The notes beneath the pieces were generated by a model, which saw only the letters and a program-made list of their open reading frames with translations, was not told the origin of the DNA and ran no database searches. This document shows, one piece after another, positions 16,916 through 22,370 of a stretch of DNA of 42,922 nucleotides (position 1 is the stretch's first letter; each line of letters opens with the position of its first letter). Position numbers and translations under genes: made by a program. Location: positions 1 to 42,922 of the forward strand of contig JAOMAI010000007.1 in NCBI GenBank assembly GCA_028344155.1, in the 5' to 3' direction. The DNA comes from Candidatus Nitrosopelagicus sp. Its GTDB lineage: Archaea; Thermoproteota; Nitrososphaeria; Nitrososphaerales; Nitrosopumilaceae.

Positions 16916-17855
16916 TAGGAAATTTGCCACACATTCTACAAAATCTTGAATTTAAATTAATTTCGTAATCACAATCCGGACATTTTCTATCTGAATTTGA
17001 TTTTTTTACTGTGCTAGACTTTCGGAAGCATTCGTAGTAGTGTAGTGATTCTTTAGTTCTAATATACACTCCATCCTCTTCCAAGATCTTTGTTTTTTTC
17101 TGTGAAAAAATCTCATCTGTAATTATTGTATTAAATAATCCTGTTAGATTATTTGTTCCTGATCCATCTTGCATAGGTGATTTTTCTCTCCAAATAACAT
17201 TTTTTGGAAGTTCTTTTTCAAATGTTTCTCTAAGAATCCATTTTCCAAATTTTTTATTGTCTTTGACATTAATTTTTCTTAAAATTGGTATGCTGTCTGA
17301 AAATCTTATTACATCATTATCTAAAAATGGACTTTCAACTTTCATGTTTAATGATTTGGCTATATCTTTTGATGGAAAATGCATGATTTTTTTAATCCGT
17401 TCTAATTCTTCATCTAGTTCGTCATTGGATTTCTTTAATAGGAAATTATATCCTGCAAAAATTTCATCTGCCCCGTCTCCTGTAATTACTGAATCCACTC
17501 CTTTGTTTTTTAATGAACTCAGATAGAGGTATGGAACAATTGAATTACGTATTTCTATATCATTAAAATTATCTAAAATTTTGATTGTTTCATTAATTGA
17601 ATCTAAAATCTCTTCCATGGTGACTTGCATCAATGATAAGGCTAATCCTGTGTGTTTGGCAATGATTTGTGCAAAAGTAAGATCTGTTCCCAAAAAATCC
17701 TTTGTGATAATTGTTATTGCTTGTGGATTCTGATCTTTTCTTAGATGTGCCAGTATACTGCTGTCTAATCCTCCTGATAATGCAATCCATTCTGATTCAC
17801 ATTCTCTGACTGCATTTTGTAACGTTGTTCTACATTGATCCATATCTGTTTTCAT
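16908..17855 (-). CDS. AsnB-like synthetase domain with C-terminal zinc ribbon, no glutaminase domain
   Basis: A 315-aa protein starting just before the ATP PP-loop SGGLDSS (residues 27-33). It contains the asparagine-synthetase signature TGDGADEIFAGY and the C-terminal RETFEKELPKNVIWREKSP. The usual N-terminal class II glutaminase domain is absent, so it would use ammonia or act on another amide donor. The last 28 residues add a zinc ribbon with Cys292/295 and Cys306/309. This is not a truncated gene: upstream is a non-coding promoter region. It could be a free-ammonia asparagine synthetase or a modification enzyme for a macromolecule recognised through the ribbon. Confidence 0.82.
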   Translation of the reverse strand: MKTDMDQCRTTLQNAVRECESEWIALSGGLDSSILAHLRKDQNPQAITIITKDFLGTDLTFAQIIAKHTGLALSLMQVTMEEILDSINETIKILDNFNDIEIRNSIVPYLYLSSLKNKGVDSVITGDGADEIFAGYNFLLKKSNDELDEELERIKKIMHFPSKDIAKSLNMKVESPFLDNDVIRFSDSIPILRKINVKDNKKFGKWILRETFEKELPKNVIWREKSPMQDGSGTNNLTGLFNTIITDEIFSQKKTKILEEDGVYIRTKESLHYYECFRKSSTVKKSNSDRKCPDCDYEINLNSRFCRMCGKFPIN

Positions 17856-18720: not shown

Positions 18721-19266
18721 CTATTGCTTGAAATCTAACAATGGTATGTTTTGATAATCCCCATTAGGCAACACACGTCTTATTGTAATTGGAATCACTC
18801 GTTCTTCTAGTTCTTTCATTGATATATCTAGTGAGGTTGCAGCACTAACAGGAATGTCTATGAATGGTGGTGCTCCTAGTGATAACTGTAATGCACGTGC
18901 ACCCATAATTCTTGCCTTTTCGAATCTTGTTAATGTTGGAGGTCCCATCAATATTTTTCCATCTGCACTTAATTCCATTGCTTCATGATTTACATCTACA
19001 TCAATAATTTCACGTTGTCTAATTGCCTCGCATTCTTTTTCTAATTCTTCTAACTGTTTATCTGTTAATTCTAATTTTCCTTCTTTTATTTTTCTATAAT
19101 AATCAATTGCCTTCTCCATTGTTGCATGAATACTTACTTCTGCATCTGGATCAATTTCTTCAGTATCTGGTTGAATTATTTCATCTAATTTTGCTTCTGG
19201 AACTAATGGAGCTGGTTCTTCCTCTTTTTTTTCAGTTGTATTTGGTGTATCTTCAGGCTCAGACAA
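18721..19266 (-). CDS. rpoK: RNA polymerase subunit K (Rpo6/Rpb6 homologue) with long N-terminal extension
   Basis: Small RNA polymerase assembly subunit. The C-terminal 65 residues contain the conserved core GPPTLTRFEKARIMGARALQ...LGAPPFIDIPVS and ERVIPITIRRVLPNG. Most archaeal RpoK proteins are little more than this core. Here about 115 residues precede it: a Pro/Glu/Asp-rich acidic region, then a charged helix (EKAIDYYRKIKEGKLELTD). The start is taken as TTG at 19266 (SEPEDTPNTTEKK), because the only nearby TATA box (19288-19297) is 26 nt upstream. An ATG at 19311 would place the start upstream of that box. Confidence 0.92.
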   Translation of the reverse strand: MSEPEDTPNTTEKKEEEPAPLVPEAKLDEIIQPDTEEIDPDAEVSIHATMEKAIDYYRKIKEGKLELTDKQLEELEKECEAIRQREIIDVDVNHEAMELSADGKILMGPPTLTRFEKARIMGARALQLSLGAPPFIDIPVSAATSLDISMKELEERVIPITIRRVLPNGDYQNIPLLDFKQ

Positions 19267-19287
19267 GTAAACTAATTGAAAAATGCC

Positions 19288-19297
19288 AATATATAAT
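19288..19297. promoter_or_regulatory. Single TATA box shared by rpoK and the divergent cyclophilin-like gene
   Basis: The element AATATATAAT, with palindromic core ATATAT, is centred at about 19292. That is 26 nt from the rpoK TTG (19266, minus strand) and 26 nt from the ATG at 19318 (plus strand). No second AT-rich box fits either gene, so one TBP site may serve both directions. Confidence 0.5.
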
Positions 19298-19317
19298 CCA
19301 AAGCTGTACATTTCATA

Positions 19318-19704
19318 ATGGATGGTGGATCTGTATCAAAATCGCAAGTAATTTTGGAAATAATCGGTAATTCTAAAATTACATGTGAATTAAAACGTCA
19401 TCTTTCTCCTTCTTTAGTCGGAACCATTATTCGTTCATTACCTGTAACCGGAACCATCCACCTGCTTGGTAGTAGTGGTGTTTATGTTGAATCTCACATT
19501 GAATCTGGTGGAGAGCGCACTCGAAAAGAATTCAAAAAAGGTGATATTGCATTTTTATCTGTAGGTCATGCATTTTGTTTTTTCCATAAGGATACAAAAG
19601 TTGGAAAGGATCTAATTCCAATAGGAAAAATCATTGATAATGTGGATGAATTATTGAACGTTGATTCTGGAGATGAAGTTTCTATTTATTGTGAAACTGG
19701 TTGA
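19318..19704 (+). CDS. Cyclophilin-like fold protein (COG2164/TM1367-like)
   Basis: A 128-aa protein with the beta-rich pattern ILEIIGNSKITCELKRHLSPSLVGTIIRSLPVTGTIHLLGSSGVY, followed by KKGDIAFLSVGHAFCFFHKDT and PIGKIIDNVDELLNVDSGDEV. This matches the small cyclophilin-like family of unknown function represented by TM1367. The classical cyclophilin catalytic Arg motif is not evident, so isomerase activity is doubtful. It is divergent from rpoK and overlaps the 3' end of rps25e by 19 nt. Confidence 0.75.
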   Translation: MDGGSVSKSQVILEIIGNSKITCELKRHLSPSLVGTIIRSLPVTGTIHLLGSSGVYVESHIESGGERTRKEFKKGDIAFLSVGHAFCFFHKDTKVGKDLIPIGKIIDNVDELLNVDSGDEVSIYCETG

Positions 19705-22295: not shown

Positions 22296-22370
22296 AACAA
22301 AAGAGTTTAACAAGTAAATGCGTTATAAGCTTTTCATTTCTTTTAATACGTTAATTTATAATTTTAAAAT

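Follow-up and report, generated by a model that had tools for sequence, protein, structure and literature searches.

A conserved central TATA box between rpoK and a divergent cyclophilin-like gene in the Nitrosopumilaceae, very probably a bidirectional promoter

Ordinary divergent promoters in archaea consist of two back-to-back TATA boxes, and are assembled from the same BRE, TATA and leaderless parts as the locus described here. Symmetry of bacterial and archaeal promoters was reportedly treated by Warman et al. in 2021. In Pyrococcus furiosus, a single TATA box has been described as giving rise to two RNAs that begin about 50 bp from each other, or 49 bp in the case of PF1918 in vitro, and these bidirectional BRE-TATA-BRE promoters are attributed to symmetric binding by TBP (PMC6640164). 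In bacteria, two papers, both citing Warman et al., describe bidirectional promoters in which the symmetry of the core elements allows one promoter to fire both ways (PMC10268837, PMC12825309), and bidirectional promoters of the Salmonella chromosome are given there as most frequent between divergent genes (PMC10268837).

In most sampled loci of the family Nitrosopumilaceae, the gene for the RNA polymerase subunit RpoK and a divergent gene for a cyclophilin-like protein, termed cyc below, lie on either side of one TATA box. The locus was examined in a window of 42,922 nucleotides, the whole stretch of DNA analyzed, which comes from a Candidatus Nitrosopelagicus sp. assembly of 863,450 bases in 42 contigs. 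The shared-TATA divergent arrangement is real and conserved. It is very probably a bidirectional promoter in which the box starts both messages, because the box and both of its distances are kept across much of the family. The explanation that accounts best for the locus, and which is considered probable, is a single core promoter whose one TATA box would be read both ways, giving leaderless rpoK and cyc mRNAs.

Layout of the rpoK/cyc locus and its promoter signals

The coordinates of the locus, and of two similar divergent pairs in the same window, are collected in Table 1. The PF01192 match of rpoK has an E value of 2.6e-08 and a score of 34.2 bits against a cut-off of 26, while the closest solved structures to cyc by sequence are 2nnz (E 7.6e-05) and TM1367 (2ka0 and 1zx8; E 0.012-0.015). 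The N-terminal extension of RpoK is long, with the Rpb6 domain beginning at residue 110 of 181, and open frames in some relatives from the class measure 88-97 aa.

Table 1. Features of the rpoK/cyc locus and of two similar divergent pairs in the window
Feature	Position	Strand	Description
rpoK	18721..19266	-	181 aa, TTG start; PF01192, RNA_pol_Rpb6 domain at residues 110-160
cyc, cyclophilin-like (PF04126)	19318..19704	+	128 aa, ATG start; E 5e-12
Common TATA box core TATATA	19290..19295	.	centre 19292.5; in 111/111 shared-gap loci
rpoK-side spacer, 23 nt	19267..19289	-	TATA to TTG for rpoK; BRE side for cyc
cyc-side spacer, 22 nt	19296..19317	+	TATA to ATG for cyc; BRE side for rpoK
Central TTATAA	23290..23295	.	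between small ORF ATG 23264 (-) and thrS ATG 23320 (+), 55 nt between
Central TTTAAA	42158..42163	.	between ATG 42133 (-) and ATG 42188 (+), 54 nt between; midpoint-centred

The first bases of the rpoK TTG (19266, minus strand) and the cyc ATG (19318, plus strand) are offset by 52, which leaves 51 intervening nucleotides. A sequence-only reading of this DNA had proposed one palindromic TATA box at the midpoint of the two starts. The single box midway between them can be read directly in the sequence, with the TATATA centred at 19292.5 and the start-to-start midpoint at 19292. The palindrome holds for the TATATA core and not for the full 10-mer, AATATATAAT. No second TATA-like element was found by eye in the 51-nt gap, and because the gap is this short, two separate boxes each at -26 do not fit. 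A longer rpoK frame beginning at ATG 19311 was rejected, since loci L007 and L009 carry in-frame stops upstream of this TTG, at distances of 12 and 3 nt, respectively. The same extension is excluded by L003, L008 and L088, where the TTG is the sole start codon after a stop 48 nt upstream.

Promoter rules were derived from a single-contig genome of the same genus, G052 (1,232,128 bases, of which 1.2 Mb were used), in which 1363 genes were called with a simple codon model. For the 955 genes preceded by 30 nt or more of upstream space, the start positions of TATA-like hexamers peak sharply at -31 to -27 relative to the start codon. This is the distance expected for a transcript beginning at the start codon, and many first genes in this genome therefore appear to lack a leader or to have almost none. 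A motif learnt from 673 of the G052 genes comprises A-rich BRE positions and a T-T-T-A-T-A-T box, and it is weak for single promoters, with 24% of the 673 genes scoring above the 95th percentile of shuffled sequence. The BRE+TATA score of the window box is 6.1 in the rpoK direction (97th percentile of shuffled sequence) and 3.1 in the cyc direction (78th percentile). The latter score counts against a bidirectional reading, and the higher score toward rpoK implies that the two outputs need not be equal.

Conservation of the box and of its distances across the family

RpoK matches were found in 213 of 250 family genomes, 30 of which gave loci. The best 80 of 113 named loci were sampled, 59 more loci came from 60 entries picked for breadth, and these together with the window and G087 made up 171 sequences, or 140 distinct rpoK loci once identical sequences were removed. 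G087, a family genome in one contig, has 1,645,259 bases; the 1.2 Mb used contain two stretches of N totalling 80 kb, which were treated as breaks. The cyc gene is divergent from rpoK and within 1.5 kb of it in 127 of the 140 distinct loci. Among these adjacent loci, 111 have an in-frame start pair 49-54 nt apart when a choice among in-frame starts is allowed, and the fullest other 6-nt bin in a scan of gaps from 13 to 120 holds 29 loci. In 22 loci, neither gene offers more than a single possible start ahead of the matched segment; their gap is 51 or 52 in 18 cases, and 68, 70, 124 and 879 in the remaining four. In-frame TTG starts in G087 give a gap of 52. The shared-gap set spans at least 11 genera, by genus labels matched by eye. 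Ten of the 29 loci that fail the 49-54 rule were omitted on account of a contig edge, the lack of a usable start list, or borderline or uncertain starts (L020, L027, L035, L063, L065, L066, L067, L186, L200 and L212).

TATATA lies near the middle of the gap in every one of the 111 shared-gap loci, and in 58 of them it is flanked by exactly 23 nt on each side. The rpoK-side spacer measures 23 nt in 101 of the 111 loci (range 20-24), and the cyc-side spacer measures 22 or 23 nt in 101 (range 21-25). These distances are the same whichever start codons are used, the combinations for cyc/rpoK being TTG/TTG in 43 loci, ATG/ATG in 34, ATG/TTG in 33 and GTG/ATG in one. The occurrence of TATATA in this set is more than chance: the same hexamer is found at -36 to -17 in 33 of 1363 called genes in G052 and in 15 of 1277 in another family genome, compared to all 111 shared-gap rpoK loci. 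The element common to all of them amounts to about a hexamer plus one flanking A, and Shine-Dalgarno-like motifs are present in 1/111 and 0/111 spacers on the two sides. With start codons taken as proxies for 5′ ends, rpoK and cyc both appear to be leaderless by their geometry. The sequence-only reading had anticipated this on both sides, and it is borne out by the genome-wide TATA peak and by the 22-23 nt that separate the box from each start in most of the 111 loci. Conservation of the box and its spacing in relatives, a check set beforehand, was likewise found, with TATATA kept throughout the shared-gap loci and spacer lengths held.

Spacer length is kept across the family and spacer sequence is not. 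Grouped by their spacers, the 111 shared loci form seven sequence clusters, and the mean identity between clusters is 0.36 on the cyc side and 0.42 on the rpoK side, or 0.31 and 0.40 when the 6 nt adjoining the box are left out. The simplest reading would be that the two genes depend on one box, which has to lie at a set distance from each. The across-family comparison rests on one control, the neighboring divergent pair rps25/orf20072. In a like-for-like search of in-frame starts, the fullest 6-nt bin holds 122/140 loci for rpoK/cyc compared to 35/99 for the control, and outside the Nitrosopelagicus clade it holds 101/119 compared to 22/77; the totals differ from the 111/127 count above because here duplicates were removed on the sequence between the two matches. 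When N-termini are forced to align, the control gap ranges from 82 to 312 nt (37 loci) and the rpoK/cyc gap from 50 to 61 nt (only 16 loci, mostly Nitrosopelagicus). This like-for-like control strengthened the case for a shared box.

Conservation within Nitrosopelagicus proves little, because neighboring divergent gaps of 31, 57, 68 and 86 nt are about equally fixed in the genus; it was rejected as stand-alone evidence, and only comparison between genera counts. In 15 close loci of the genus, the box reads TATATATTGG in 13 and TATATAATGG in 2 instead of TATATAAC, and the TTTGGAT that adjoins it, read toward rpoK, is invariant. Among 12 relatives and the window, 31 of the 36 columns before the rpoK TTG are invariant. 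In the 12 relatives, this rpoK side (-36 to -1) is 98% identical to the window, while 15 other nearby gene starts, a few of them probably misplaced, are 36-96% identical; the cyc side, compared without gaps, is 75% identical. In view of the near invariance of the rpoK side, rpoK would seem to impose the stronger constraint in Nitrosopelagicus. The gaps of other tight divergent pairs in the window, 31 nt at 17855/17887 and 57 nt at 22313/22371, likewise hardly vary across the genus, and the 31-nt pair would need overlapping promoters.

At 19 loci, cyc is distant or was not found nearby. Six of these keep TATATAAC at the rpoK box and six, where cyc lies further away, read TATATTA (L022, L081, L102, L045, L049 and L054). 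The idea that the palindrome is lost in separated loci proved wrong, as AATATATT in L045, L049 and L054 is itself palindromic. With corrected starts, the cyc-direction medians of the 19 separated and 111 shared loci are both 4.99 (p 0.037), and the rpoK direction gives p 0.074; these p values ignore relatedness, and starts in the 19 were chosen by best TATA score. With the start of L196 left uncorrected, the cyc-direction TATA medians were 4.26 and 4.99 (p 0.003; rpoK direction p 0.20), and BRE+TATA scores were lower in the 19 in both directions (p 0.033 and 0.004). After start correction, motif scores hardly separate the 19 from the shared loci, and the comparison with separated lineages weakened on re-checking.

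The pairing of rpoK and cyc seems to be older than the family. Outside Nitrosopumilaceae, 56 genomes of the class have a PF04126 match; 32 of these were picked, and in 26 the two genes are divergent, with domain matches within 500 nt of each other by coordinates. Several genomes have two PF04126 proteins. In G087, the higher-scoring copy is found elsewhere (1127666-1128034), and the lower-scoring copy adjoins rpoK (814110-814436).

Similar divergent pairs and alternative explanations

The matching arrangements that the sequence-only reading had pointed to at 23.3 kb and 42.16 kb are real after correction of the starts, with gaps of 55 and 54 nt and central boxes (Table 1), and by gap and box both pairs fit a class with a central box and a gap of about 50 nt. 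What look by eye like the same pairs in G052 also have gaps of 55 and 54, respectively. For the 23.3-kb pair, 7 of 8 relatives with both genes have a gap of 53-55, and the other has 110.

Among the 267 divergent pairs of G052, 14 have gaps of 48-54 nt, a small peak with a soft upper edge (8 pairs at 55-61); 2 pairs lie at 43-47, and a second, broad peak begins at about 70. In G087, 13 of 250 pairs fall at 48-54 nt, none at 43-47 and 2 at 55-61, and the rpoK/cyc pair is absent from this count. Over the range 36-69 nt, the p values from binomial tests are 0.005 for G052 and 0.0005 for G087. Under a stricter flank-fitted Poisson null, which expects 6.9 and 6.7 pairs (p 0.011 and 0.020), the peak is modest. 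Pairs with a gap of 47-55 carry 0.72 midpoint TATA-like hexamers per pair in G052 (18 pairs) and 0.77 in G087 (13 pairs); in pairs 70-100 nt apart (81 in G052 and 57 in G087) where a spread over offsets is expected, the value is below 0.18 at each offset. Eight of the G052 pairs with a gap of 47-55 have reciprocal best hits for both genes in G087, where four are still divergent neighbors. Counting the corrected rpoK pair, three of these four lie near 50 nt, and one is at 72.

In the mechanism proposed for the shared box, TBP would bind the near-symmetric TATATA in either orientation, and TFB would dock on either side and fix the direction through the BRE. On the strand so chosen, RNA polymerase would then initiate some 24-27 nt from the box, at or beside the start codon of rpoK or cyc, and two leaderless mRNAs would result. 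As the box is required by either complex, no more than one could occupy it at a time. TBP and TFB occupancy, initiation on both strands and mutual exclusion are inferred, as is any regulatory coupling of rpoK to cyc, by which direction choice might link polymerase supply to the cyclophilin-like protein, as the sequence-only reading had proposed. There are two TBP genes each in G052 and G087, as well as four TFB genes in G052 and seven in G087, as judged from paired domain matches; with several factors at hand, factor choice could tune direction. A stronger proposal is that the promoter has been strictly shared since the family ancestor and acts as a built-in switch, in which a complex on the RpoK side would exclude that of cyc and the docking TFB would pick the direction. 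This is rather unlikely.

It is quite unlikely that the box serves rpoK only, with cyc transcribed from another promoter and the mirror distance inherited without function. Such a one-way promoter would suit the Nitrosopelagicus loci, where the rpoK side is 98% and the ungapped cyc side 75% identical to the window, and it would suit the window scores of 6.1 toward rpoK and 3.1 toward cyc. However, it is the cyc direction that has the higher median BRE+TATA score over the 111 loci, at 6.97 compared to 4.96 for rpoK. Moreover, an unselected spacer should vary in length, as it does in the control pair (82-312 nt), whereas the box lies 21-25 nt from cyc in 111/111 loci even though this spacer is near random between clusters (0.36).

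A possibility held tentatively is that each direction has a TATA box of its own, the two overlapping with a shift of 1-3 nt and each being read by TBP in its own register; this is a sub-form of the single two-way promoter, and the probabilities of these two readings overlap and are not additive. The best hits for the two directions are indeed shifted by 1-3 nt in 15 of 18 G052 pairs with a gap of 47-55, and the rpoK/cyc gap itself ranges from 49 to 54. The common element, at about a hexamer and one A, is nevertheless short for two separate 8-nt boxes, and use of overlapping boxes would be mutually exclusive all the same. A reading in which both spacings are fixed by a regulator, one whose operator is the invariant centre and which covers the TATA box as well, is highly improbable. 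In Nitrosopelagicus, invariance does extend through most of the 23 nt toward rpoK (31/36 columns), beyond what a TATA box needs, and in two genomes the TATATAACG/TATATATTGG form precedes no more than one called gene each. Between clades, however, sequence outside the box is not kept, so that no common operator is visible family-wide.

Comparison with described bidirectional promoters

In the open literature, outside of which most subscription papers lie, no papers were found on the rpoK/cyc pair or on promoters of this kind in Thaumarchaeota, and the search returned no start-site papers for Nitrosopumilus. The mechanism is already known; that literature yielded no account of a leaderless case conserved in this way for two genes. 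In P. furiosus, bidirectional initiation is read mainly as a source of non-functional antisense RNA (PMC6640164). If the shared promoter is true, it would provide a case in at least 11 genera in which both products are coding and one of them is a polymerase subunit, which would point to selection exploiting TATA symmetry. A start-to-start gap of about 51 nt with a central box could then serve as a genome-only signature for shared promoters in leaderless archaea, and the 111 natural sequence variants could be used for testing what sets promoter direction.

Compared to ordinary divergent pairs, whose gaps in G052 are mainly from about 70 nt, rpoK/cyc has a single central box and a gap of about 51 nt. 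The bacterial system differs in its machinery, with a sigma -10 element and starts that are usually 18 bp apart (PMC10268837). The arrangement resembles the P. furiosus BRE-TATA-BRE promoters in having one TATA box between starts about 50 bp apart; a BRE on both sides is a P. furiosus feature (PMC6640164). In that study, head-to-tail genes supplied the motif, the second RNA is antisense and is presumed to have no function, and the 5′ UTRs are said to differ from those of the mostly leaderless archaea (PMC6640164). Unlike the P. furiosus promoters as described there, the rpoK/cyc locus has two coding products, both leaderless by geometry, and its layout is kept in most of the sampled family loci. 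The rpoK/cyc locus very probably represents an already described mechanism, here involving two genes and conserved unusually well.
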